Source of the DNA: Emticicia sp. BO119
Lineage (GTDB): Bacteria; Bacteroidota; Bacteroidia; Cytophagales; Spirosomataceae
NCBI RefSeq assembly: GCF_013912375.1
Contig: NZ_JACETV010000016.1
Span: 1,530-57,136 of the forward strand
Length of the DNA: 55,607 nucleotides
Direction of reading: 5' to 3'
Under the pieces are notes generated by a model. It did not search any database. It was given only the letters and a program-made list of their open reading frames with translations, and was not told the origin of the DNA. Shown here piece after piece: positions 4,230-55,607 of the stretch; the stretch's first letter is position 1, and each line of letters starts with the position of its first letter. The position numbers and the translations under genes are program-made.

Positions 4230-7200
4230 ATGAAAAAAATCTACTCCTTTAAAAAGGTAGTAAGCCTTTTTATTTTTCTGTTTTTATCATATATATCCTG
4301 CGCACAATTGCCGTCTGGTTTTAACGACCAGCTTTTTTTAGGAGGATGGAATCAGGTAGTCGGATTTACTTTTGATGCTAATGGTCGTATGTTTGTGTGG
4401 GAAAAAGCCGGAAAAGTTTGGATAGTAGAAAATGGTGTAAAGAAAAGCCAGCCATTTATTGATATTTCGCCGGAAGTAGGTGACTGGAGAGATTTCGGCA
4501 TGGTAGGATTTGCCTTAGACCCCAACTTTATTTCAAACGGAAACGTATATCTGTTATATGTAGTTGACCGGCACCATTTATTAAAATTCGGTACATCGCA
4601 GTATAGTGCAAGTACTAACGAGTATTATAACGCCACTATTGGACGTATCACACGTTATACTGCTACCGCCGGTTCAAATTTTTCTCAGATTGACTATAAT
4701 TCAAGGAAAGTCTTGTTAGGTGAAACCAAATCTACAGGTATGCCGGTTCTACATGAATCTCACGGAGTCGGTCAAATAGTTTTTGGTACAGATGGCACAC
4801 TCCTGGCAAGTCTGGGTGATGGAGCCAGTTATGCTTCAGCCGATCAGGGCTCTGCAGGAGAGACTTATTGGCAGACAGCCCTGAACGATGGGATTATCAC
4901 ACCTCAGGAAAACGTAGGAGCTTATAGATGCCAGATGCTAAATTCATTAAGCGGTAAAATCATAAGAATCGACCCGAATACAGGTGATGGAATCCCTTCG
5001 AATCCCTATTGGAACCCAAATAATCCACGTTCAGCGCAATCAAGGGTGTGGGCAGTGGGATTAAGAAACCCCTATCGTTTTACTATTAAGACAGGGACAG
5101 GAAGCCCCGATAGAAACGATGGTAATCCAGGTACATTTTTTATAGGTGATGTGGGTTGGAATACGAAAGAGGAACTTAATATCCTTACAAATAAAGGACA
5201 AAATTTCGGTTGGCCTTCCTATGAAGGAATGGAAGCACAAGGGGCTTATAATAATAATACCTATAAACCAGCAACCTACGACAGACCTAAATTAGACTGG
5301 CGAAATGGAAGTAATGCAAGAGGGTATATTAATGGGGTAGTTTCTAATGTGGGTAGTTCTTTATTATCAGGTTCTTCTTTTGGCGGAAACGCCTCAACCG
5401 GAGGTGTATGGTATACAGGTTCAAGTTTCCCTGCTGAATATAAAAATACCTATTTCCATGCCGACTATGGTGGCGGCTGGATAAGAAACATTAGTTTTGA
5501 TGAAAATCTTAATCCAGAAAAAGTGAAAAACTTTGTTCCGGATGGTAGCGGCTCTATTGTATTTGTTGGTCAACAACCCTTTCAGGATGCTTTATTATAT
5601 GTCAAATATCCGGGTGAAATAAGACGTATTACCTATACACAATCAGGCAATAAATTCCCTACTGCCATTGCATCGTCTGATAAAACTTTCGGAACTTCGC
5701 CATTAACAATACAATTTACAGGAGATCAGTCTTATGATCCGGAAAACGGCAATTTAAGCTACCTGTGGGAATTTGGTGATGGGAGTATCAGTACCTTGGC
5801 AAATCCTCAAAAAATATTTAATACTTCGGGTAATACTGCTTATAATGTAAAGCTGACAGTTACTGACAATGGAGGGGCAAAAAATTCGGCTTCTATTTTA
5901 ATATCGCCGAATAATACACCACCGATTATAAACGCAAGTACTTTAAACGAGATTAATACCTTTCAGGTAAGTGGCAAAACCTATCTGACATTAGATTGCT
6001 CTGCTTCTGATAAAGAAACATCTGATTCTCAATTAAATTATAGCTGGCAAGTGGCTTTATTTCATAATGAGCACAATCACCCCGAACCGCCAATTAATCA
6101 GAAGACAACCTCAGCCGTTATTTCTCCAGTAGGTTGTGACGGAGCTACCTATTGGTATCGGATTACCTTAACCGTTCAGGATACTCAAGGTTTAACTGCA
6201 ACATTGAGTAAAGATATTTATCCCAATTGCGGGGCTGCACAGCAATCTATTACTTTCAATAGCCTTGCCAATAAACTTAATACAGATACACCTTTTGCCA
6301 TCAGTGCAGTTTCTACTTCAACCCTGCCTATATCTTATTATGTATTGAGCGGTCCTGCCACAGTAGTTGGAAATGTTGTTATCCTAAGTGGCCTTCCGGG
6401 TACTGTTACTGTTGCTGCCACCCAACCGGGGAATACTGATTTTGCTCCGGCAAGGCCGGTCTTTCAGTCTTTTGCTGTAACAAAAAAAGTGGATACTCCA
6501 ACTAACCCTCCGGTGCAGAATGGAGACGGAAATGGGTTAGCCGCCACCTATTTTGATAATATAGACTTAACTAATCCCAAAGTAGCCCGGATTGATTCTA
6601 AAATTGATTTTAACTGGGCAACAGGTTCACCGGCTACAGGGATAGCTAATGACACTTATTCGGCAAGGTGGATAGGTGAAATATTAGCTAAATATACCGA
6701 AACTTATACGTTGAGTGTCTCGGCCGATGATGGAATCAGAGTATGGATTAATAACCAGCTTGTATTAGACAGATGGGTTGACCAGTCATTTACCACTTAT
6801 AATTTTATGGTAAATTTGGTAGCAGGTCAAAAAGTACCTGTTAAGGTTGAATATTATGAAAATGGAGGAGATGCCGCGGTAAAATTAGAATGGGCAAGTG
6901 TGAGCCAGGTAAAAGAAGTAATACCGCAAAGCCAGTTATTTGGGGTAGTTGTACCTATTGCACCAACTACACCGCCTGACGGAAACGGGAATGGTCTGGC
7001 AGCTACTTATTATGATAATGCTAACCTCACTACTCCTAAGCTAACCCGTTTAGATAATAAAATTGATTTCAATTGGGGTTCTGGTTCACCCGACCCATCC
7101 ATAGGAAATGAGACTTATTCTGTTAGATGGCAAGGTCAGATCTTACCAAGATACTCAGAACAATATACCTTTAGCATCACCTCTGATGACGGAGTGAAAG

Positions 7201-8174
7201 TATGGATTAATAATCAGTTGAAAGTGAATAAATGGGTTGCTCAGTCTTCTGTAACCAATACCTTCACGATAGACTTAACAGCAGGGCAGAAGACCTCTAT
7301 TTTGATAGAATATTATGAGAATACAGGCAATGCCATGATAAAATTAGAGTGGGCAAGTACAAGCCAGGTAAAGGAAATAATACCGCAAAGCCAGTTATTT
7401 GGTATAGAACCCGACCCTATAGTCGGCACTGGCTTAACTGGTAGTTATTATAATAACAGAGACCTTACAAGCCTGAAGCTTACCAGAATAGACAAGACCA
7501 TCAACTTTAACTGGGGAAATGGTTCTCCTGCTTCGAGTATTTCAAACGACACCTATTCAGTTCGTTGGGAAGGATTCTTATTACCCCGTACTACGCAGGT
7601 TTATAATATTATGATGACAGGCGATGACGGAATAAAAGTTTGGATAGATAACCGATTGATTATTAATAAATGGATTGACCAGTCGCCGACTACTCATTCT
7701 TATGCTATCTTATTGTCTGGTGGTGTAAAAGTGCCTGTCAGGATTGAATATTATGAGAATACAGGCGGGGCTGTTGCCAGGTTAGAATGGTCTGGCCCGA
7801 GTCAATCTCGAGAAGTGATACCTCAAAGTCAATTGTTCCCTAAAACAGGAACTTCAGGTATTATTAATAACTCTGAAGTGCCTGAAATAATAGGCAATTT
7901 CATTAGTATGAAATCAGAAGAAAATGATATTTTACTTTTTCCTAACCCTGCTGGTGAAAGTGTAACTATTCAGTTAAACAAATTGGCAAATCGTGCTGTA
8001 AAGCTACAAATGATTGATGAAAGAGGATCTATATTACATCAGGAATCATTCAGTAATAAAACTGAGATTGACTTGTCTCTCAAAAGTTATCATGGCGGGC
8101 TTTATTTTATTATTATAGAAGACGAAACCCAAGAGGTAGGGAAATCAGTCAAAAAACTGATAATTCAGCACTAA
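4230..8174 (+). CDS. Secreted glucose/sorbosone dehydrogenase-like protein with PKD and three PA14 domains, type A T9SS signal
   Basis: 1314 aa. The signal peptide ends near SYISCAQ. A GSDH-type (PQQ-dependent sugar dehydrogenase) six-bladed propeller spans about residues 30-470, with HESHGVGQIVFGTDGT, LASLGDGAS, VWAVGLRNPYRF and GQNFGWPSYEG. A PKD domain follows (about 485-555; YLWEFGDGS). Three similar PA14 domains start near residues 765, 918 and 1067, each ending in a KLEWASxSQ/EVIPQSQLF-like segment. The C-terminus (from about 1231; LFPNPAGESVTIQL) is a type A T9SS sorting domain. Family knowledge: oxidises sugars or aldoses at the cell surface; PA14 often binds glycans. Substrate and PQQ dependence are not proven by the sequence. 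It is monocistronic in appearance, between the left adhesin and the PorE-like gene. Confidence 0.88.
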   Translation: MKKIYSFKKVVSLFIFLFLSYISCAQLPSGFNDQLFLGGWNQVVGFTFDANGRMFVWEKAGKVWIVENGVKKSQPFIDISPEVGDWRDFGMVGFALDPNFISNGNVYLLYVVDRHHLLKFGTSQYSASTNEYYNATIGRITRYTATAGSNFSQIDYNSRKVLLGETKSTGMPVLHESHGVGQIVFGTDGTLLASLGDGASYASADQGSAGETYWQTALNDGIITPQENVGAYRCQMLNSLSGKIIRIDPNTGDGIPSNPYWNPNNPRSAQSRVWAVGLRNPYRFTIKTGTGSPDRNDGNPGTFFIGDVGWNTKEELNILTNKGQNFGWPSYEGMEAQGAYNNNTYKPATYDRPKLDWRNGSNARGYINGVVSNVGSSLLSGSSFGGNASTGGVWYTGSSFPAEYKNTYFHADYGGGWIRNISFDENLNPEKVKNFVPDGSGSIVFVGQQPFQDALLYVKYPGEIRRITYTQSGNKFPTAIASSDKTFGTSPLTIQFTGDQSYDPENGNLSYLWEFGDGSISTLANPQKIFNTSGNTAYNVKLTVTDNGGAKNSASILISPNNTPPIINASTLNEINTFQVSGKTYLTLDCSASDKETSDSQLNYSWQVALFHNEHNHPEPPINQKTTSAVISPVGCDGATYWYRITLTVQDTQGLTATLSKDIYPNCGAAQQSITFNSLANKLNTDTPFAISAVSTSTLPISYYVLSGPATVVGNVVILSGLPGTVTVAATQPGNTDFAPARPVFQSFAVTKKVDTPTNPPVQNGDGNGLAATYFDNIDLTNPKVARIDSKIDFNWATGSPATGIANDTYSARWIGEILAKYTETYTLSVSADDGIRVWINNQLVLDRWVDQSFTTYNFMVNLVAGQKVPVKVEYYENGGDAAVKLEWASVSQVKEVIPQSQLFGVVVPIAPTTPPDGNGNGLAATYYDNANLTTPKLTRLDNKIDFNWGSGSPDPSIGNETYSVRWQGQILPRYSEQYTFSITSDDGVKVWINNQLKVNKWVAQSSVTNTFTIDLTAGQKTSILIEYYENTGNAMIKLEWASTSQVKEIIPQSQLFGIEPDPIVGTGLTGSYYNNRDLTSLKLTRIDKTINFNWGNGSPASSISNDTYSVRWEGFLLPRTTQVYNIMMTGDDGIKVWIDNRLIINKWIDQSPTTHSYAILLSGGVKVPVRIEYYENTGGAVARLEWSGPSQSREVIPQSQLFPKTGTSGIINNSEVPEIIGNFISMKSEENDILLFPNPAGESVTIQLNKLANRAVKLQMIDERGSILHQESFSNKTEIDLSLKSYHGGLYFIIIEDETQEVGKSVKKLIIQH

Positions 8175-44950: not shown

Positions 44951-45469
44951 ATGAAAAAACTGTACTTTCTGACAATAATCGCCCTTTTGAATAGCTGCAT
45001 CTCTGACAATGAGAAAACAGCTGATGTAAAGGTGATGGGTTATCGCCCCATTTATACCGATTATGCAAGTATTCGTAAAATAGAACTGCAAAAATCAAGA
45101 GGGCTTTCGCGTCCTGGTAAAATCTATACTAAGGGTAAATATCTCTATATTAATGAATTAGGCGAGGGTATCCATATCTTTGATAATTCAGACAAAACTA
45201 ATCCTAAGCCTGTTGCCTTTCTGGCGATTCCTGTCAATAAAGACATTTCTATCAAGAACAATATTCTCTATGCTGATAATGGCGATGACCTGATAACTAT
45301 TGATATTTCTGACCCGAATAGTGTAAAAGTTTTGAAACGTATCGAGAAGGCCTTCCCTTATCCAAGCTATCCCAACGAGAGAGGTAAGTTTGAATGTGCT
45401 GACCCCAATAAAGGGTATGTAAAGGCATGGGAATATGTTGAACTAACCAACCCTAAATGTTTTAGATAA
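44951..45469 (+). CDS. LVIVD-repeat lipoprotein, first of a pair
   Basis: 172 aa with lipoprotein signal (FLTIIALLNSC). Three LVIVD-like strands: GKIYTKGKYLYINELGEGIHIFDNSDKTN, then VAFLAIPVN and LITIDISDPNSVKVL (beta-propeller blades), ending AWEYVELTNPKCFR. Too short for a closed propeller on its own. The next gene starts 3 bp after its stop and supplies the remaining blades, so the two may build one fold. Starts a four-gene unit that ends in porQ. Confidence 0.8.
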   Translation: MKKLYFLTIIALLNSCISDNEKTADVKVMGYRPIYTDYASIRKIELQKSRGLSRPGKIYTKGKYLYINELGEGIHIFDNSDKTNPKPVAFLAIPVNKDISIKNNILYADNGDDLITIDISDPNSVKVLKRIEKAFPYPSYPNERGKFECADPNKGYVKAWEYVELTNPKCFR

Positions 45470-45472
45470 ACC

Positions 45473-46225
45473 ATGAAAGCACTAAAAAAACTCATAAGTT
45501 GCTTAGCCGTAATGACATTTATATATGCTTGTAAAGGAGATAGCGTTGCCACTGATAGCACTTCAAATATTGGTAGAGGAGGCTCTATGGCTCGCTTTAC
45601 TATTGCCAAAGACTATTTGTATATTGTAGATAATCAATCACTAAAGGTTTTCAGAATTACTGAGCCTGAAAACCCTATTTCTGTTAAGAGAGTGCCGCTG
45701 AACACGGTAGTAGAGACCATTTTTCCTTTTGAGGGGCATCTGTTAGTAGGTACACAAACCGGAATGTTTATCTTTAGTATCAGCGACCCTGAAAATCCCT
45801 CAAGGATTTCTACTTATTCTCATGTAGTATCATGCGACCCCGTCGTGGCAGACGGAAACTATGCTTATGTAACACTTCGTAGCGGAACTAATTGTAACCG
45901 GGGTATAAACGCTTTAGATGTAGTAGATATAAGAGATATGACTAACCCTCAACTATTAAAAAGCTATCCAATGCAAAATCCACACGGCTTAGGAGTAGAT
46001 GGTAATCTTTTGTTCGTAACCGAAGGAAATCACGGGTTGAAAGTATTCGACAAAACTAATCCTAACGACTTGAAGCTAATCAAAACCTTTCAGGATTTTA
46101 CAGCTTTCGATGTGATCCCTGAGTCCGATGTATTAATTATTACCGGAAAACAGGGTATTTATCAATATAGCTACAACGCACAAAATGAATTGAAACTATT
46201 AAGTAAAATTCCCATTGAATCATGA
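45473..46225 (+). CDS. LVIVD-repeat lipoprotein, second of a pair
   Basis: 250 aa with a lipoprotein-type signal (LAVMTFIYAC). LVIVD blades: GGSMARFTIAKDYLYIVDN, LKVFRITEPENPISV, MFIFSISDPENPSRI, ALDVVDIRDMTNPQLL, LKVFDKTNPNDLKLI. Beta-propeller, probably surface-exposed, function unknown. Overlaps the following gene by 4 bp (ATGA), so translation is coupled. Confidence 0.88.
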   Translation: MKALKKLISCLAVMTFIYACKGDSVATDSTSNIGRGGSMARFTIAKDYLYIVDNQSLKVFRITEPENPISVKRVPLNTVVETIFPFEGHLLVGTQTGMFIFSISDPENPSRISTYSHVVSCDPVVADGNYAYVTLRSGTNCNRGINALDVVDIRDMTNPQLLKSYPMQNPHGLGVDGNLLFVTEGNHGLKVFDKTNPNDLKLIKTFQDFTAFDVIPESDVLIITGKQGIYQYSYNAQNELKLLSKIPIES

Positions 46226-46938
46226 GATATACCACAATGATTTTACTTTTCGTTTTAGAATTTGCCAAACAATCAGTGGCACAGGATACAATTCAGAAAA
46301 ACCACCTTGCATTAAAAATAGCCCCCTTAGCTATTTTAGATATTGATAACACTTTTCAGTTTGCCGTAGAGCATAGATTAAAAGGAAACAGATGGACTTT
46401 ATCTGAAGAATTGGGATACGGCACGGCTGCCGCCAATTTCTGGGCAAATTCTTTTAATAGTTCGGGCAGTAAGTTAAGAGAAAACATCCGCGCAAAAATA
46501 GAGGCCAGAAAATACAGAAATGCTTTTTATGGCAGATATGTCGCATATGAGTTATTTTACAAGCAAATTAATGACAGAACTAATCGTGGTATAGGTCGTG
46601 AGTGTGAGACCGGATTGTGCAATTATTATGAAATGGTCAATTATCCGATTAACAAGCACGTAGTAGGCATTAGTGCAAAAATCGGATATCAGGTAAGAAT
46701 TCGTAATGAATTGAAAAAAAATACCAACTTTGTATTTGATTTTTACGTAGGGGCAGGGCTAAGGCGAATCATGATAAATCATCATGATCCTGACGAATCC
46801 TTACAAGACAACGGATTGAATAATTTTTTATATTTTAATGATGGTTTTTTCAGTAACTCAGGGCTTGGATACGGAGACAAAAATTATAATATACCCCACC
46901 TGGCATTGGGTCTTAAAATTGGCTATCTTATTTTCTAA
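46222..46938 (+). CDS. Outer-membrane protein, DUF3575-like
   Basis: 238 aa. Signal peptide (LFVLEFAKQSVAQ), then alternating strands typical of a small beta-barrel: LALKIAPLAILDIDNTFQFAVEH, GISAKIGYQVRI, FDFYVGAGLRRI and the C-terminal LALGLKIGYLIF ending in an aromatic, the usual BAM signal. Contains a short Cys pair (ECETGLCNYY). Starts inside the previous gene's stop; its 3' end overlaps porQ by 20 bp. Confidence 0.8.
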   Translation: MRYTTMILLFVLEFAKQSVAQDTIQKNHLALKIAPLAILDIDNTFQFAVEHRLKGNRWTLSEELGYGTAAANFWANSFNSSGSKLRENIRAKIEARKYRNAFYGRYVAYELFYKQINDRTNRGIGRECETGLCNYYEMVNYPINKHVVGISAKIGYQVRIRNELKKNTNFVFDFYVGAGLRRIMINHHDPDESLQDNGLNNFLYFNDGFFSNSGLGYGDKNYNIPHLALGLKIGYLIF

Positions 46939-47959
46939 ATCAATTATTATAACCTTTTTCTTGCTGGCTTTTTGCTCTTTCCGCATTCAAACCTTCTCAC
47001 AAAATAGCTTTTCATTCCTGACATTGCCTAATAATGCACACCTGAACGCATTGGGTGGAATAAATGCCTCTCTTTTTGATAAAGATATTAATCTGCATAC
47101 CATCAATCCTGCTTTATTAGATTCATCTCAACGTGGGCAACTGGGTATAAATTATTCACCCTATCTGGCTCAAAGTAATTTCTTTACACTCAATTATGCG
47201 CCAATATTTAAGAATGCCACTGGAAAAAGTCAATGGGGCATTAGTTTGCAAAATTTGAACTACGGTAACTTTCAGGGAACTGATGCCGTTGGTAACCCGA
47301 CAGGTGAGTTTTCGGCCAATGATTTTTCATTAGGAGTTACCCATTCCAGACAAATCAGCAATATCTCATTTGGTATTACAGCCAAATTAGTCGGGTCAGT
47401 TTTGGAGTCATATAATTCAATAGCAATATTAACCGACTGGGGTGGTACGTTCAGGCATCCAAACTATGACTTAAACTTGGGTATTGTGGCCAGAAATATA
47501 GGTTTTGTAGTGAAAAGTTATGGAAATATTAAGCCTGATATTCCTTTTGATTTACAAATTGGAGCCTCTTTCAAACCGGCTCATATGCCAGTAAGATTCT
47601 CAGTTACGGCACATCATTTATATGTTTTTGATATTGCTTATAACGACCCTGCTTTCAACTATACCTTTGATAATCAAGGAAATAAAGTGCCAGAAAAAAC
47701 CTCAGTGGCCGACAAAATATTTCGTCATCTGGTAATTGGTACCGAGATTCTGATTCATAAAAATTTTCATCTGTTAGCTGGTTATAACCACCTTCGTCGT
47801 CAGGAACTCACCATAAATTCATTAGGTGGTGCAGGCGGATTCTCTTTTGGTGCTAACCTCCGTCTCAAGCAATTTGGCTTTTCGCTTTCACGCTCTGTAC
47901 TTACTACGGGTAAAGGTTATTTTACATTTAGTGCCCTCTGGAATTTACTTAAGAAATAA
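46919..47959 (+). CDS. porQ: T9SS component PorQ
   Basis: 346 aa from a TTG at 46919. This start gives a signal peptide (MAILFSKSIIITFFLLAFC...FSQ) and a 20-bp overlap with the upstream gene; the ATG at 46838 would overlap by 101 bp and place 27 extra residues before the signal. The mature part starts with FSFLTLPNNAHLNALGGINASL and continues with HTINPALLD, WGISLQNLNYGNFQGTDAVGNPTGEF and a barrel-like end (SRSVLTTGKGYFTFSALWNL). PorQ is an outer-membrane part of the attachment complex with PorU, PorV and PorZ, which trims the sorting domain of T9SS cargo and links it to lipopolysaccharide. Directly upstream of the giant adhesin. Confidence 0.85.
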   Translation: MAILFSKSIIITFFLLAFCSFRIQTFSQNSFSFLTLPNNAHLNALGGINASLFDKDINLHTINPALLDSSQRGQLGINYSPYLAQSNFFTLNYAPIFKNATGKSQWGISLQNLNYGNFQGTDAVGNPTGEFSANDFSLGVTHSRQISNISFGITAKLVGSVLESYNSIAILTDWGGTFRHPNYDLNLGIVARNIGFVVKSYGNIKPDIPFDLQIGASFKPAHMPVRFSVTAHHLYVFDIAYNDPAFNYTFDNQGNKVPEKTSVADKIFRHLVIGTEILIHKNFHLLAGYNHLRRQELTINSLGGAGGFSFGANLRLKQFGFSLSRSVLTTGKGYFTFSALWNLLKK

Positions 47960-48249: not shown

Positions 48250-51200
48250 GTGTCCATTGTAATAGAAAATAACTATTGCTCTCCTAAATTCATTGATTTA
48301 AAGAGAAGCCTCTTTTGGCAGACTTATGCTAATCATAAGTGTGCCATAGGTTTAAGCGTCTGTCTCTTTTTAAGTCTTTTTTCTTCTGCTTTTTCTCAGA
48401 ATACCATTGCATCACAATCAAGCCAGAACATTATTTCAGCTGTTGCAGATAGTAACCAGGGTCTTTCAGATCAGAATAATGCTATACTTGCATTAAGCAA
48501 TACTACGGGAAATGAGGTGAAAATCTACACCGAGGGTGAAAAATTCTTTAATAGAAACCTATCAGCCACTTTTGAAAAACCGTCTGCATTTGTATCAGGC
48601 GACGTAGTAGCCTGTAGTAATGTTACCTCTGCAGGTTATATCAGTACAAGTGATAACCAGACGATACAGATATTTTGTGCGACTTCCTACAATCCAAGCT
48701 CATTTAATAATTATGCTTCTGCATCAGGAGGTAGCGGTACACTATACTACCAATGGCAGTATAGTACAGATAATTATAACTGGACTGATATTTCAGGGGC
48801 AGTTTACAGCACTTATAATCCTTCTACGCTTTCTACACTGACTTATTTTCGTCGTTTAGCAAGAAGATATGAATGTACTACTTGGCTTGCATCAAATACA
48901 TTAATAATTGCTGTAAACATGCTACCAAGTGTATCTTTATCAAAGACAGACCCAACTTGTGGTTTAAGTAATGGAACTATTACAGCAACAGGAAGCGGGG
49001 GGATAATTGGTTTAGGAGCAATTACCTATCAGAAGTGGAATAGTATAAGTGGTACAACTGTCGCAAACCTCACAAGCAACTATAATTATCCGAATAACCC
49101 ATCAAGCACAACTACATTAACTGAGATGGAGGCTGATGTTGACCAGGCAGATAATTTTGGCGCACGCATGATTGGGTATATTACACCGACCATTACCGGC
49201 ACTTATTATTTCTGGATATCTTCTGATGATAATGGCGAATTATGGTTAAGTTCAAATGAGAGTGCTTCCAATAAAACAAAAATTGCCTATCATACCAGCT
49301 ATACGGGCTCTCGGGAATGGAACAAGTTTTCTACGCAAAAATCAGCAGCAATTAGCCTGGTGGCAGGAGAAATTTATTATATAGAAGCTATATACAAAGA
49401 AGGAGGAGGGGGTGATAATTTAGCAATCGGATGGGCAAAACCGGGGGAGTCAACGACTTCCCCTTCTGAGGTTATACCGATTGATGCCATCAGACCTTAT
49501 CAAACCTCATCAGTCACTACCCCTACTTATCAGTATTCAATAGATGGTACAAATTTTCAAACCAGCAATGTATTCTCCGGTTTGGCAGCAGGTACCTATA
49601 CTATTACCATTAAAGATGTATATGGCTGTACAGCAACAAGCTCAGTTACTTTATCAGGTACTACCCTAAGTGTAACAGCAAACAGCAATAATCCTCTGTG
49701 TGTAGGGCAAACGCTTAACCTGACAGGGTCAGCAAGCCCTACTGCAAGTACTTATAAATGGACAGGTCCGGGAGGTTTTACCTCAACTTCCCAGAACCCA
49801 AACAGAACCAATGCTACTACCGCCATGAGTGGTACATACACTTTAGCTGCTACATTTTCTGGTTGTACTGCCACGGTTACAGCAACTACTGCTGTAACGG
49901 TATCAACACTTCCTTCAACCCCGGGTACTATTGGTGCCACTCGTTGTGGTACGGGCACAGTAACACTATCAGCAAGTGGTTGTGCCGGAACATACAGATG
50001 GTATAATGTTTCTAATGGAGGTTCTTCTTTAGGTACGGGTAGTAATTTCACAACTCCGGGCATTTCAAGTACAACTACCTATTATGTAGAATGTAATGTT
50101 AGTTCATGCACAAGCAGCCGGGCATCCGCTATAGCTACAGTAAATGCAAACCCAAGCCCAACTGCTACCGGAGATACAGAATGTGAAGGCTCAACCATTA
50201 TTTTAGGCTCAACAGGTGGTACTTCTTATACCTGGGTCGGGCCGAATAGTTTTACTTCTAATTTGCAAAACCCGACTATAGCCAATGGTACAACCAATAT
50301 GTCAGGTGTGTACACGGTTACGGTAACAAATGCCGCAGGTTGTACAGAGACAGCCACAGCAAGTGTATTAGTAACAGCCATTCCATCTGCTCCCACAGGT
50401 TCGGATGTAGTTCGTTGCGGAACAGGCACAGTTACCCTGACAGCATCAGGCTGTAGTTCAGGAACCTACACGTGGTTTGCCAATGCAACCACCTCCACAA
50501 GTTTAGCTACAGGAACAACTTATACTACACCAGGCATTTCCTCAACAACGACTTACTATGTAAGCTGTACTGTAAATGGTTGTGTAAGCCCTGGTAGAGG
50601 CGCGATAAATGCAATTGTTACGTCACCTCCGTCTGCACCGGACGTTGTTAATGGTTCACGTTGCGGAACAGGTTCTGTCGCACTTTCTGCCAGTGGCTGT
50701 TCAGGAACTTATGCCTGGTACACCGCGACAACAGGAGGTTCATCAATTGGCTCAGGAAGTACCTTTAACACACCGGGTATTTCAAGCACAACTACTTATT
50801 ATGTAGAATGTAACTTCGGGTGTTTAAGTAGTAGGTCGGCAGTTACTGCAACAATAAATGCTATTCCCGCTGCTACAGCCACCGGAGATACAGAATGCGA
50901 GGGCACCACTGTTGTATTAGCTTCAAGTGGTGGCGCATCATATTTATGGTCTGGTCCCAATGGATTTACTTCTAATTTACAAAACCCGACTATAGCTAAC
51001 AGTACAACTAATATGTCTGGCCTATATACCGTAACTGTAACCAGTGCCGCAGGTTGTACAGCTACTGCCACAGCAAGTGTATTAGTAAAGCCAATTCCGG
51101 GTGCGCCAGGTGGTAATGATGTAGCACGTTGTGGCACAGGAACAGTAACACTTACAGCTACAGGTTGCAGCGGTACCTATACATGGTATGCAAATGCTAC

Positions 51201-54200
51201 TACTTCAACAAGCCTGGCAACAGGAGCGACATATACCACACCAAGTATCTCAACTACCACAATGTATTATGTGAGTTGTACTTTGAATGGTTGTGTTAGC
51301 ACTACAAGGGGTTCAATGAATGCCATCGTTACCACACCTCCTTCAGCGCCGACCACGGTTGATAACTCCAGATGTGGCACAGGAACAGTAACACTATCGG
51401 CAAGTGGATGTGCCGGAACATACAGCTGGTATGCAGCAGCGACAGGTGGTTCGGCATTGGGCTCTGGTAGTACCTTTACTACGCCAGGTATTTCAAGTAC
51501 AACTACTTATTATGTCGAATGTAATTTCGGTTGTGTTAGTACCAGAGCCGCAGCAATAGCTACAATTAATGCATTACCTTCAATTACTACTACAGGAGAT
51601 ACCGAATGTGAAGGCTCTACTATTGTTTTAGGTGCTTCAGGTGGTGTATCCTATAGCTGGACAGGCCCAAACAGCTTTACTTCTACTCTTCAAAACCCGA
51701 CTATTCCTAACAGTACAACATCAATGTCGGGAATATATACAGTAACGGTAACTAATGCAGCGGGTTGCACAGCCACAGCTACAGCCAGCGTATTAGTTAA
51801 ACCAATTCCAGGTGCACCAGCTGGTAATGACAATAGTCGCTGCGGTACCGGAACTGTCACGATATCGGCCACAGGCTGTAGTGGAGGTACTTATACCTGG
51901 TATGCAGCTGCTTCCGGCGGCTCAAGTTTGGGAACAGGGTCAAGCTATACTACCCCAAGTATTTCAAGCACTACCACTTACTATGTGAGTTGTACTGTAA
52001 ACGGTTGTACAAGTACAACCAGAGGATCGGCTGATGCAACTATCAAGCCTATTCCATCAGCACCAACAACAAGCCCTGTAAGCCGGTGTGGTACAGGTTC
52101 TGTTACTATTTCAGCCGATAATTGTGCTGGAACGGTCAACTGGTATGCTGCTGCATCCGGCGGTTCAAGTTTAGGAACAGGCAACTATACAACACCAAGT
52201 CTAACAGCCCCTTCTACCACTACATATTATGCAGCTTGTACCGTAAATGGTTGTGTAAGCACAAGCCGTACTGCTTTAACCGTAACTGTTCTGACCCCAC
52301 CAACAGCAAGTGCATCTAATACAGGTACTCATTGTTTGGGAACAACCTTTAAATTGATAGGAGGGGGGAATGGAGAAAGTTTTTCATGGAGTGGTCCTAA
52401 TGGCTTTAGTAGTAGTGAGCAATCTCCGTTAGTAAACAGTGCTACATCAGCAATGGCGGGTGTTTATACATTAACTGTTACTGCTTCTAATGGCTGTACG
52501 GCCACAGCTACCACAAACATGGTTATTAATAGCAGCTGTACATCAGTATGTACTACACCTATTGCAGTTCAGCCAACTAATCCGTCCTCATGTTCTGGAA
52601 CAGATGGTTATATTTTTGTAACCGAGTATTCTGCAGGCCCTTACTACGAAAACAGTATAGACGGTGTTACATGGTACAATTCAGAGAAGACTTATTCAAG
52701 CCTTGGGGTTGGTTATTATACAATATTTATCAGAGATAAAACCTCAAAAATAGTCTGTAGAACTATTTCGGCGGTTCTTACCTCTTCTACCAGCTCTTAC
52801 TTTACAGGTGCTACTACCACCTCTGCCACCTCATGTTCTGCAACAGATGGTAAAATTGTTCTGCAGGGTGTTTTAGGAACAGATGATGTTTCGTGGATTT
52901 CTTCAACAAGCCGTACCTATGTGAAAGTTTCAACACTTTCTCCAAGTAATACGATTTCAAATTTAGCGCAAGGTACTTATTATGTGATAGTATCAAGAGG
53001 AGGTAATCCGCTTTGTTATAGCGAAAGAAGGGTAACCGTAGGAAATAGCGGAACTCCTTGCCCTACAGGTCTTTGTACAATTTCAAAAAATACAAATCTT
53101 TTCCCTGGTGGTGATTTTGGTTCAGGCAGTTCTGTTACAGGACCTTCTTTGTCACCGGGTGAGACGCAGTATAGTTATGCACCTATGAACTGTGATTCTC
53201 CGAATGACGGTAACTATACTATTACAAACACAACGGATTGTAATGGTTCAGCATCAGGAGGAAAAATATTTACAACCTGGGATATTCTCACCCAAGACCA
53301 TACTACAGGTGATTCCAACGGTTATATGATGATTGTCAATGCTTCATATAATCCGGATATTGTAATTGAGAGAACTGTAACAAATCTATGCCCCAATACA
53401 AGATATGAGTATAGCTTGTGGATATATAACCTTTGTCCTGCAGCTGATGCAGCAGGTTGTACCATAAAACCTAATTTGACTTTTCTCGTTGACGGGGTTG
53501 GTAAATATACAACTGGTGACATAACAGGAACCACCTGGCAACAGGTCGGCTTTACTTTTACTACGGGTAATTCAACGACGTCAACATTCAGTATCAGAAA
53601 TAACGCAACGGGTGGACAAGGTAATGACTGGGCTATTGACGACATCGCTATTATTCAGTGTCTGCCAGCGATTACCCAAAGTGCTAATATCACTAAGTGT
53701 ATTGGTACAACCGGACAAACCATTTCAGCAACAGTAACCGATGGTAGTACCCAATACACCTACTATAAATGGCAGCAAAGTACTGATGGTGGAACCACCT
53801 GGACCGATTTGACAAGCGGTACTTCAACTACATTTACCTCAGGTGCTTATACAGTTTCTTATACATTGCCAACTATCACAGCGGCAATGAATGGTAGAAA
53901 ATACAAAATTGTAGTAGGTACTTCTTTGTCTAATTTAGCTAATTCTGACTGCTCTTACGATGGTACAGAAACAACATTGACTGTTCCGGTAATCATTGTT
54001 ACACCTTCTGCTAATCAGACGATTTGTACAGGTAGCAGCGCAACAATTACGGCAAGTGCTTCTGGAGGAACAAGCCCTTATACTTATTCGTGGAGTAACG
54101 GTTTAGGTAGTGGGACTTCAAAAACTGTCAGTCCTACTTCTACAACAGTTTATACCATAACCGTTACCGATGCAAATGGTTGTACAGCTACAGCTACAAC

Positions 54201-55607
54201 ACAGGTAACAGTAAATAGTCTTCCGTCGGCTCCAACAGCCGTGAATGGAAGCAGATGTGGTACAGGTACAGTAAATTTGGCAACCACAGGTTGTAGCGGT
54301 ACCGTAACCTGGTATGCTTCTTCAACAGCCACTTCAAGCCTTGCTACAGGAACCAACTACACTACACCGAGCATCAGTACTAACACTACTTATTATGTAA
54401 CCTGTACAGTAAATGGTTGTGTAAGTGGCTCACGTACAGCAGTAACTGCTACAGTAAATACAATTCCTACCGCAACTGCCACAGGAGATGTAGCGTGTGC
54501 TGGTAGTACTATCAATTTATCGGCAAGTGGAGGAAGTACCTATAGCTGGGTTGGTCCTGCAAGTTTTAGTTCTACACTACAGAATCCAACCAGACCTAAT
54601 GCCACTACCACTATGAGTGGAGTTTACACAGTAACTGTCACATCTGCGCAAGCTTGTACTGCTACCGCTACGGCTACTGTAACAGTTAACCCAACACCAA
54701 CGCCAGGTATTTCGGGTAATACCAATATTTGTATAGGACAGTCAACAACCTTAACTGCAAATGGAGGAGAAAGTTATCTGTGGAGTACAGGAGAGACTAC
54801 AACAAGTATTAATGTTAGCCCGTCTACCTCTACAGTTTATACGGTAACAGCCTATACTACCAATAGTAGTTATACTAATTTAGTAACTGATCAGGCGATT
54901 TTTAATGCAGCAAATTTTAATTATATCAACTCTTCGGCTTCTTACGCTGGTCCACAGAATTTATTTGATGCAGTTGATAATACAGGAGTTAACACTTTTC
55001 ATGCAACAAGAATAACTAATGGTCAGGATTGGGGAATAGGCTATGCATTAGGTGGAGACTATCTGATTACTTCATTAAGTCTTGATGGAAGAAACGATTG
55101 TTGTACAGACAGAGCCAAAGGTGGGGTGATGCAGATATGGAAAAATGGCTCAATGGTTTATCAGAGTAGCATTGTCAGTGGCTCCGGTAACGGTGTAATT
55201 AGTACCAGCCCTGTACCAAATGTAATAGGAGACGAAATACGATATATTTTCTTAAATGGAGCCAATACAACCAGCGGAGAAACCACACTTAATTTTGCGG
55301 AATGGATTGTTGGAGGTGCAAAAGTATGCTCAGCTAACACTCAGGTAACAGTAACTGTAAATCCTATACCTACGATAACAGCGGGTTCAAACACCCCTGT
55401 CTGTGTAGGTCAGACTTTGAACTTAACTTCATCAGGAGGCACAAGTTACTCATGGGCAGGGCCGAATGGTTATACCTCAACAACTCAGAATCCAAATATC
55501 AGCAATGTAACCAGTGCGGCAACAGGTATATACACAGTAACTGTAACGAATGCCAGTGGTTGTAGTGCCACAGCGACCACCTCAGTAGTGATTAATGCCT
55601 TACCAAC
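48250..55607 (+). CDS. Giant SprB-like adhesin, 5' part, with nested PA14 and F-type-lectin-like domains
   Basis: More than 2452 codons; the 3' end lies outside the window. The only start between the in-frame TAG at 48247 and the signal sequence (IGLSVCLFLSLFSSAFSQ) is GTG at 48250, with an N-extension of about 30 residues. Order: N-terminal region; SprB repeat split by a PA14 domain (PA14 about 49021-49500); twelve Ig-like modules of types A and B in A-B-B order (about 49678-52550); two SprB-like repeats (to about 53040); a jelly-roll, carbohydrate-binding-like domain (about 53086-53660; NDWAIDDIAIIQC); further Ig modules; an Ig module split by an F-type-lectin-like domain (about 54865-55330); and another A module at the edge. 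T9SS-exported stalk with glycan-binding units is the likely role. Stop codons are absent throughout frame 1. Confidence 0.9.
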   Translation, partial: MSIVIENNYCSPKFIDLKRSLFWQTYANHKCAIGLSVCLFLSLFSSAFSQNTIASQSSQNIISAVADSNQGLSDQNNAILALSNTTGNEVKIYTEGEKFFNRNLSATFEKPSAFVSGDVVACSNVTSAGYISTSDNQTIQIFCATSYNPSSFNNYASASGGSGTLYYQWQYSTDNYNWTDISGAVYSTYNPSTLSTLTYFRRLARRYECTTWLASNTLIIAVNMLPSVSLSKTDPTCGLSNGTITATGSGGIIGLGAITYQKWNSISGTTVANLTSNYNYPNNPSSTTTLTEMEADVDQADNFGARMIGYITPTITGTYYFWISSDDNGELWLSSNESASNKTKIAYHTSYTGSREWNKFSTQKSAAISLVAGEIYYIEAIYKEGGGGDNLAIGWAKPGESTTSPSEVIPIDAIRPYQTSSVTTPTYQYSIDGTNFQTSNVFSGLAAGTYTITIKDVYGCTATSSVTLSGTTLSVTANSNNPLCVGQTLNLTGSASPTASTYKWTGPGGFTSTSQNPNRTNATTAMSGTYTLAATFSGCTATVTATTAVTVSTLPSTPGTIGATRCGTGTVTLSASGCAGTYRWYNVSNGGSSLGTGSNFTTPGISSTTTYYVECNVSSCTSSRASAIATVNANPSPTATGDTECEGSTIILGSTGGTSYTWVGPNSFTSNLQNPTIANGTTNMSGVYTVTVTNAAGCTETATASVLVTAIPSAPTGSDVVRCGTGTVTLTASGCSSGTYTWFANATTSTSLATGTTYTTPGISSTTTYYVSCTVNGCVSPGRGAINAIVTSPPSAPDVVNGSRCGTGSVALSASGCSGTYAWYTATTGGSSIGSGSTFNTPGISSTTTYYVECNFGCLSSRSAVTATINAIPAATATGDTECEGTTVVLASSGGASYLWSGPNGFTSNLQNPTIANSTTNMSGLYTVTVTSAAGCTATATASVLVKPIPGAPGGNDVARCGTGTVTLTATGCSGTYTWYANATTSTSLATGATYTTPSISTTTMYYVSCTLNGCVSTTRGSMNAIVTTPPSAPTTVDNSRCGTGTVTLSASGCAGTYSWYAAATGGSALGSGSTFTTPGISSTTTYYVECNFGCVSTRAAAIATINALPSITTTGDTECEGSTIVLGASGGVSYSWTGPNSFTSTLQNPTIPNSTTSMSGIYTVTVTNAAGCTATATASVLVKPIPGAPAGNDNSRCGTGTVTISATGCSGGTYTWYAAASGGSSLGTGSSYTTPSISSTTTYYVSCTVNGCTSTTRGSADATIKPIPSAPTTSPVSRCGTGSVTISADNCAGTVNWYAAASGGSSLGTGNYTTPSLTAPSTTTYYAACTVNGCVSTSRTALTVTVLTPPTASASNTGTHCLGTTFKLIGGGNGESFSWSGPNGFSSSEQSPLVNSATSAMAGVYTLTVTASNGCTATATTNMVINSSCTSVCTTPIAVQPTNPSSCSGTDGYIFVTEYSAGPYYENSIDGVTWYNSEKTYSSLGVGYYTIFIRDKTSKIVCRTISAVLTSSTSSYFTGATTTSATSCSATDGKIVLQGVLGTDDVSWISSTSRTYVKVSTLSPSNTISNLAQGTYYVIVSRGGNPLCYSERRVTVGNSGTPCPTGLCTISKNTNLFPGGDFGSGSSVTGPSLSPGETQYSYAPMNCDSPNDGNYTITNTTDCNGSASGGKIFTTWDILTQDHTTGDSNGYMMIVNASYNPDIVIERTVTNLCPNTRYEYSLWIYNLCPAADAAGCTIKPNLTFLVDGVGKYTTGDITGTTWQQVGFTFTTGNSTTSTFSIRNNATGGQGNDWAIDDIAIIQCLPAITQSANITKCIGTTGQTISATVTDGSTQYTYYKWQQSTDGGTTWTDLTSGTSTTFTSGAYTVSYTLPTITAAMNGRKYKIVVGTSLSNLANSDCSYDGTETTLTVPVIIVTPSANQTICTGSSATITASASGGTSPYTYSWSNGLGSGTSKTVSPTSTTVYTITVTDANGCTATATTQVTVNSLPSAPTAVNGSRCGTGTVNLATTGCSGTVTWYASSTATSSLATGTNYTTPSISTNTTYYVTCTVNGCVSGSRTAVTATVNTIPTATATGDVACAGSTINLSASGGSTYSWVGPASFSSTLQNPTRPNATTTMSGVYTVTVTSAQACTATATATVTVNPTPTPGISGNTNICIGQSTTLTANGGESYLWSTGETTTSINVSPSTSTVYTVTAYTTNSSYTNLVTDQAIFNAANFNYINSSASYAGPQNLFDAVDNTGVNTFHATRITNGQDWGIGYALGGDYLITSLSLDGRNDCCTDRAKGGVMQIWKNGSMVYQSSIVSGSGNGVISTSPVPNVIGDEIRYIFLNGANTTSGETTLNFAEWIVGGAKVCSANTQVTVTVNPIPTITAGSNTPVCVGQTLNLTSSGGTSYSWAGPNGYTSTTQNPNISNVTSAATGIYTVTVTNASGCSATATTSVVINALP
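49678..52550 (+). repeat. A-B-B super-repeats of Ig-like modules
   Basis: Type A modules (xGDTECEG...GPNxFTSxLQNPT...SGxYTVTVTNAAGC) start near 50170, 50884, 51595 and about 52318, 711-723 bp apart. Between them lie two type B modules (RCGTGTVTLSASGC...TTTYYVECNFGC). The first A-B pair (from 49678) lacks the second B. Copies are highly similar, so the array probably grew by duplication of the three-module block. Confidence 0.85.

Follow-up and report, generated by a model that had tools for sequence, protein, structure and literature searches.

A fucose-binding domain projecting from a split immunoglobulin (Ig)-like module has been demonstrated in the RTX adhesin AhLap of Aeromonas hydrophila: its carbohydrate-binding module (CBM) has a PA14-type strand topology, in which a calcium ion helps to hold the sugar, binds Lewis B and Lewis Y and is blocked by fucose, and AhLap, like MpIBP, is a giant repetitive adhesin from whose split Ig-like module a glycan-binding domain buds, with a type I secretion signal in the case of AhLap (PMC12077191). 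F-type lectins are represented by eel agglutinin (AAA, 1k12), striped bass FBP32 (3cqo) and bacterial domains. According to a review of this family, two Arg residues and a contiguous Cys pair of the eel lectin contact fucose along with His52, Glu147 is a cation ligand, and the His motif is printed as HX24, yet the numbering of His52 and Arg79 leaves 26 residues between them (PMC5712786). Analysis of a 55,607-nucleotide window of the Emticicia sp. BO119 genome (6.57 Mb in total; contig NZ_JACETV010000016.1, positions 1,530 to 57,136) brings the two themes together: a large, repetitive, adhesin-like open reading frame (ORF) contains a domain that resembles F-type lectins in sequence and is nested within an interrupted Ig-like module.

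The ORF runs off the window at a point where the contig itself ends, 275 bases downstream of the nested domain and still inside the array of modules. It is called an adhesin here as an interpretation of its repeat architecture. The relevant features are as follows.

48250..55605, + strand: large repetitive adhesin-like ORF, 2452 amino acids, 3' end open where the contig ends; Pfam matches comprise 13 Ig_7 stretches, PA14 and Ig_2.
54700..54861, + strand: first part of the split Ig-like module, up to VYTVTAYT (local module profile, model positions 2-54, E 2.1e-8; Pfam Ig_7 positions 4-59 of 84, E 0.036, under the cut-off).
54862..55332, + strand: nested F-type-lectin-like domain as searched, 157 amino acids, the last residues already part of the returning module.
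55000..55011, + strand: H-A-T-R, either of whose two basic residues, His and Arg, may be the third one of the site.
55090..55113, + strand: R-N-D-C-C-T-D-R, the F-type signature with an adjacent Cys pair.
55300..55302, + strand: Glu of LNFAEW, aligned with the last-strand Glu (LAEV) of bacterial F-type domains.
55324..55371, + strand: last strand of the split Ig-like module (VCSANTQVTVTVNPIP), assigned by eye (match to model positions 50-67 at E 0.33 here and at 0.0038-0.084 in four relatives).

The initial annotation had described an Ig module that is interrupted and then resumes, and the same break is present at the same position in all five Emticicia genomes that carry the domain. A profile of 21 distinct uninterrupted modules, collected by pattern from the adhesins of five genomes, was run against the five nested stretches without joining their halves, so that E-values refer to a search of five sequences. 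The first piece is found in every stretch (E 1.3e-8, 1.4e-8, 2.1e-8, 1.8e-6 and 3e-6) and stops at model position 52-54, except in genome G007 (positions 1-60); a second piece beyond the domain, again in all five, starts at model position 50-52 and ends at 65-67, with weak E-values of 0.0038, 0.022, 0.063 and 0.084 in the relatives. Every stretch also has a stray middle match within the domain (E 0.28 to 1.5), which in the window (0.28) equals the second piece in score. The returning half is accepted on account of its identical position in all five genomes and its resemblance by eye to neighbouring modules (CSANTQVTVTVN compared with CTATATTQVTVN), not on account of its score. Comparison of the five genomes thereby confirms, at the level of sequence, that the interruption is real. 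The module is interrupted between its last two strands, a place that we read as the F-G loop from the general layout of Ig-like sandwiches, and in sequence terms the arrangement is that of a split-domain adhesin, a domain emerging from an interrupted Ig-like domain.

The nested domain is found in 5 of 11 genomes of the genus, including that of strain BO119, and in none of 47 other relatives (5 of 58 in total). In a sample of 395 genomes of the phylum, only the BO119 genome itself has a match at E<=0.001; in a profile search of 395 genomes of the class there are two matches at E<=0.01, and the second (E 0.008) is to an F-type domain in genome G086. Four further matches of 12-16 bits lie elsewhere in Emticicia genomes. 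No relatives were found in viral contigs with protein or profile queries or with a DNA pattern, and the phage collection has no match at E<=0.001 to the F-type domain of G086. The window domain is 63-87% identical to its four relatives, and dN/dS (the ratio of nonsynonymous to synonymous substitution rates), computed with four of the five copies, is 0.040, 0.054 and 0.101 in the three pairs that include the window, indicating purifying selection, with dS above 1.3, saturated and hence unreliable. This identity and the low dN/dS speak against chance.

The only match to the window domain in the plasmid collection, and the nearest relative found outside Emticicia, is in Persicobacter sp. JZB09 (CP012861; 32% identity over 137 columns). 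Like the Emticicia copies it keeps both H-A-x-R and R-x-D-C-C-x-x-R; unlike them it is not nested in a stalk module and forms the C-terminal end of a subtilase-family peptidase, encoded on the plasmid at L015:4579-6351 (+).

In sequence, several comparisons place the domain nearest to the F-type lectins. Among 177,635 distinct sequences of the PDB, a phmmer search with the window domain has two matches at E<=10, and both are F-type lectins (FBP32, E 0.031; eel lectin, E 0.032); a profile of the five sequences has seven matches, with the eel lectin first (0.0072) and FBP32 third (0.051). The resemblance extends across about 60-90 residues and includes the R-x-D-C-C-x-x-R core and the last-strand Glu. 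Alignment-to-alignment comparison with hhalign, in which each E-value is that of a single comparison of shallow alignments, gives E 4.6e-7 (probability 92.6) against six bacterial F-type-related domains, E 3.1e-4 (probability 39.6) against three domains from a different genus of the class, and E 0.18 (probability 0.3) against five ordinary F5/8C domains of the same genome; those five ordinary domains score E 8.8e-5 against the F-type set, a partial likeness to be expected within one superfamily. The six-domain set was found with the G086 domain, and three of its members have DCC and three do not; altogether, ten F-type-related matches were divided into alignment A5 (six), alignment A4 (three) and one left out (L029). 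As a yardstick, the G086 domain matches FBP32 at 9.7e-28 and has matches, the weakest at 3.5e-13, to six PDB sequences in all that are F-type lectins or bear the name fucolectin or platelet aggregation factor; by this measure the window domain lies much further away. Resemblance to F-type members thus exceeds that to other discoidin-type domains, with moderate E-values, and suggests a divergent F-type-lectin-like domain of the discoidin superfamily, for which sugar binding would be expected.

The candidate binding site combines conserved and shifted elements. The signature reported initially, R-x-D-x4-R with an adjacent Cys pair, is present as RNDCCTDR, and all five Emticicia copies retain R-x-D-C-C-x-x-R (RNDCCTDR, RNDCCTER or RNDCCSSR), in agreement with the family pattern R-x-D-x4-(R/K) plus Cys pair. 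The upstream peptide FDAVDNTGVNTFHATR occupies 54964-55011, with the His codon at 55000-55002, and the 29 residues between this His and the first Arg of the signature were counted correctly. The proposal that this His is the binding His of the family is not supported as it stands: HMMER aligns it with His47 of the eel lectin and leaves a gap opposite His52, MAFFT places it one column before His52, and the Arg three residues on, which MAFFT places two columns after His52, is a rival for the role. Both residues of H-A-x-R are invariant in all six aligned sequences (five from Emticicia, one from Persicobacter). Either a longer loop may bring His47 of the domain into the pocket, or Arg50 of the domain may take the place of the family His. 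What the copies have at the cation motif depends on the alignment register: the HMMER register reads D-N in all five copies, and the MAFFT register reads D-G in two (L007 and L008) and D-A, D-D and D-N in the other three. The last-strand Glu is kept in all five copies and is His in the Persicobacter relative; it may correspond to the cation ligand Glu147 of the eel lectin, the printed alignment of which stops short of this position.

The explanation that we favour, with moderate confidence, is that a divergent F-type-lectin-like domain is seated in the last loop of the Ig-like module. The host module would fold from its two halves and serve as a socket, with the domain held out to the side of the adhesin fibre; the domain would have its termini opposite the pocket, an arrangement that we infer to be suited to insertion into a loop; and the loops that carry Arg77, Arg84, the Cys-Cys pair (presumably joined in a disulfide) and His47 or Arg50 would face outward and bind a sugar in a terminal position, of which L-fucose, or another sugar that has a similar axial hydroxyl, is the most likely. 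The protein would thus reach out from the cell with split modules that carry sugar-binding domains, and the ligand would probably be terminal fucose or a like sugar on an algal, plant, fungal or bacterial polysaccharide. Where a complete protein can be examined, the position of the domain does not bear out the earlier description of a fucose-binding tip: in the whole frame of 5512 residues in genome G003, the N-terminal part of which is unlike that of the window protein by eye, the signature lies at residue 2713 and about half of the protein follows it. Nor is a fucose-binding domain in a split Ig module the unusual design that was supposed, given the precedent of AhLap (PMC12077191). The window protein differs from AhLap in that its inserted domain is F-type-like, it belongs to the Bacteroidota and a PorQ gene adjoins it; a search of openly licensed papers turned up no description of stalk modules with an F-type-like domain set into them.

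A number of results weigh against this explanation. Taken by itself, the second module piece of the window (E 0.33) falls short of significance. The window domain departs from F-type lectins, themselves not nested in this way, in its His-Arg gap of 29 rather than 26 residues and in lacking the DG of the cation motif h2DGx, where HMMER gives D-N and MAFFT D-A. The interpretation in the initial annotation is partly supported. In the profile check that it proposed, Pfam F5_F8_type_C (PF00754) matches the window domain at 24.7 bits, below the cut-off of 28.2, and one of the five copies exceeds the cut-off (L007, 29.1; the others 22.8, 22.0 and 15.8). Five mistletoe-type B chains match the five-sequence profile at E 0.032-0.12 over positions 79-143, and because they score beside FBP32, the E-values of that search are weak when taken alone; we take the fold of these chains to be different and hence the matches to be due to chance. 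For the Persicobacter relative, the PDB search gives no F-type lectin at E<=10, and Pfam nothing below 0.1. AlphaFold2, given three sequences for each job (the window and two loci whose domains both share 87% identity with that of the window), returns a mean predicted local distance difference test score (pLDDT) of 34.4 for the whole split module and 37.3 for the domain alone, values too low to define a fold and ascribed to the small depth of the alignments; a PDB fold search with the latter model, not counted as evidence, finds nothing below E 1.

In one alternative, the domain is a glycan binder of the discoidin superfamily with a drifted site that recognizes another sugar, for example of galactose type or a unit of an exopolysaccharide, by way of H-A-x-R, instead of fucose by the F-type triad. 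That H-A-x-R is invariant in all six aligned sequences, with nothing at the position of the family His, fits such drift, and departures from the motif may indicate other specificities or loss of binding, according to the review of the family (PMC5712786); the R-x-D-C-C-x-x-R core is nevertheless invariant, and it supplies the Arg pair and Cys pair that contact fucose in the eel lectin in that same review. A drifted site is the strongest competitor, and in our estimation an unlikely one. The low pLDDT values, and the scatter of invariant residues over the whole domain rather than the signature alone, would also suit a ligand-free structural spacer that stiffens or branches the stalk, with the Cys pair outside any binding site. 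Against a spacer, H-A-x-R and R-x-D-C-C-x-x-R persist at 32% identity in the Persicobacter relative, where the domain ends a subtilase-family protein, a possible place for a carbohydrate-binding module and not one for a stalk spacer; we regard this alternative as quite improbable. The contig end, 275 bases away within a module array, raises the question of an assembly or recombination artefact that fused two genes. That explanation is rejected as barely conceivable, since four other assemblies agree on the arrangement, among them the 5512-residue open frame on a contig of 268,828 bases. The F-type-lectin-like domain seated in its Ig-like socket remains the preferred reading.

Other domains appear to be nested in repeats of the same adhesin and of related proteins. 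In the window the features concerned are these.

48919..49011, + strand: first part of a SprB repeat split by PA14 (SprB positions 3-25 of 37, E 3.6e-4, 20.5 bits, cut-off 28).
49114..49467, + strand: PA14 domain, apparently nested (54.0 bits for 49009-49518, cut-off 24).
49519..49668, + strand: rest of the PA14-split SprB repeat (TPTYQYSIDG...GTYTITIKDVYGC), by eye only.

The first part comprises the 31 residues that precede the PA14 domain, and a SprB repeat in G003 breaks near the same point (positions 3-26, E 4.1e-4). The returning half after PA14 has no match to the SprB profile. The 5512-residue adhesin of G003 also has two CBM_4_9 domains (48.9 and 28.8 bits, cut-off 25.9) that interrupt Ig-like modules by eye, and a third insert ('LVTNGDF') that matches nothing significantly; the stretch beyond this insert aligns with Ig_2 from position 28 through to the end of that model (E 4.1e-5, below the cut-off), and the piece following the first CBM_4_9 has no Pfam match. 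All three inserts lie at L010:14568-17081 (- strand), each between Ig-like pieces by eye.

Adhesin-like proteins of one other genus of the class have a similar domain (FWHS...NR(T/S)DCC) nested in a stalk repeat: at L026:1279-1923 (+), L027:1378-2025 (-) and L028:858-1493 (-), an F-type-like domain (FWHS...DCC) lies inside a SprB repeat. Unlike the Emticicia arrangement, the host is SprB, matched over positions 2-26 before the domain (E 3.2e-5, 0.0018 and 0.0086) and stopping at profile position 26 of 37; in L026, 27 residues separate the His from the Arg, and the His falls in the His52 column. L029 is a fourth match in this genus. The returning halves in the three genomes have no SprB match, and all five SprB scores at split repeats (the window, G003 and the three of this genus) fall short of 28, the Pfam cut-off. 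Because a script pattern for complete SprB-type repeats had no hits, the returning halves were judged by eye.

The different host repeats and loops suggest that these nestings arose independently. What seems to be new is the occurrence of the split-module plan in the Bacteroidota, more than once. A broader proposition, which we hold to be about evenly balanced, is that Ig and SprB repeats serve as general sockets in giant adhesins of this phylum, with unrelated carbohydrate-binding jelly rolls (F-type-like, PA14 and CBM_4_9) set in loops of single repeats, so that each fibre would display several outward sugar binders; the split-domain plan of RTX adhesins would have been reached independently, with the loop used varying from repeat to repeat. 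If this is true, a stalk repeat that stops and resumes would be a search cue for ligand-binding domains in Bacteroidota adhesins, where such domains sit among thousands of repeat residues and may, like that of the window, score under profile cut-offs. The same outcome would also provide a divergent subfamily of F-type-like domains whose basic residue has shifted, of use in learning which residue fixes fucose.

The gene adjoining the adhesin ORF upstream encodes a type IX secretion protein:

46838..47959, + strand: PorQ (NCBIfam NF033711, 342.1 bits against a cut-off of 220, over 46850-47956).

Together with the repeat types, this neighbour suggests that the adhesin may be exported by the type IX system and displayed on the cell surface. 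The Pfam model Por_Secre_tail scores E 0.68 against the window ORF, a value without meaning since the ORF is truncated at its 3' end. The C-terminus is visible in two relatives, neither of which shows a sorting domain (NCBIfam gives no match at E<=1, and Pfam none to a sorting tail), and secretion-tail models have no match in the last 300 residues of these adhesins (L010 and L011). The two visible C-termini have in common a tail, CPxGYCEPxxxVKxK, at L010:2430-2474 (-) and L011:3510-3554 (-). Three genes of the genome exceed the cut-off for Alpha_L_fucos (PF01120), which is compatible with fucose use without proving it.

The adhesin ORF also contains a domain of 192 residues, 'LFPGGDFGSGSS...AIDDIAI' (53092-53667), for which the best Pfam match is MAM at E 0.049; the stretch around it (52549-53682) has counterparts with 86% identity in two relatives and partial matches (34-48%) in four further genomes of the genus. 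Elsewhere in the window, two neighbouring short ORFs lie at 44951-46225, the first matching the LVIVD repeat and the second similar by eye, and a single protein encoded at 4230-8171 combines GSDH, PKD, three PA14 stretches and a Por secretion tail.

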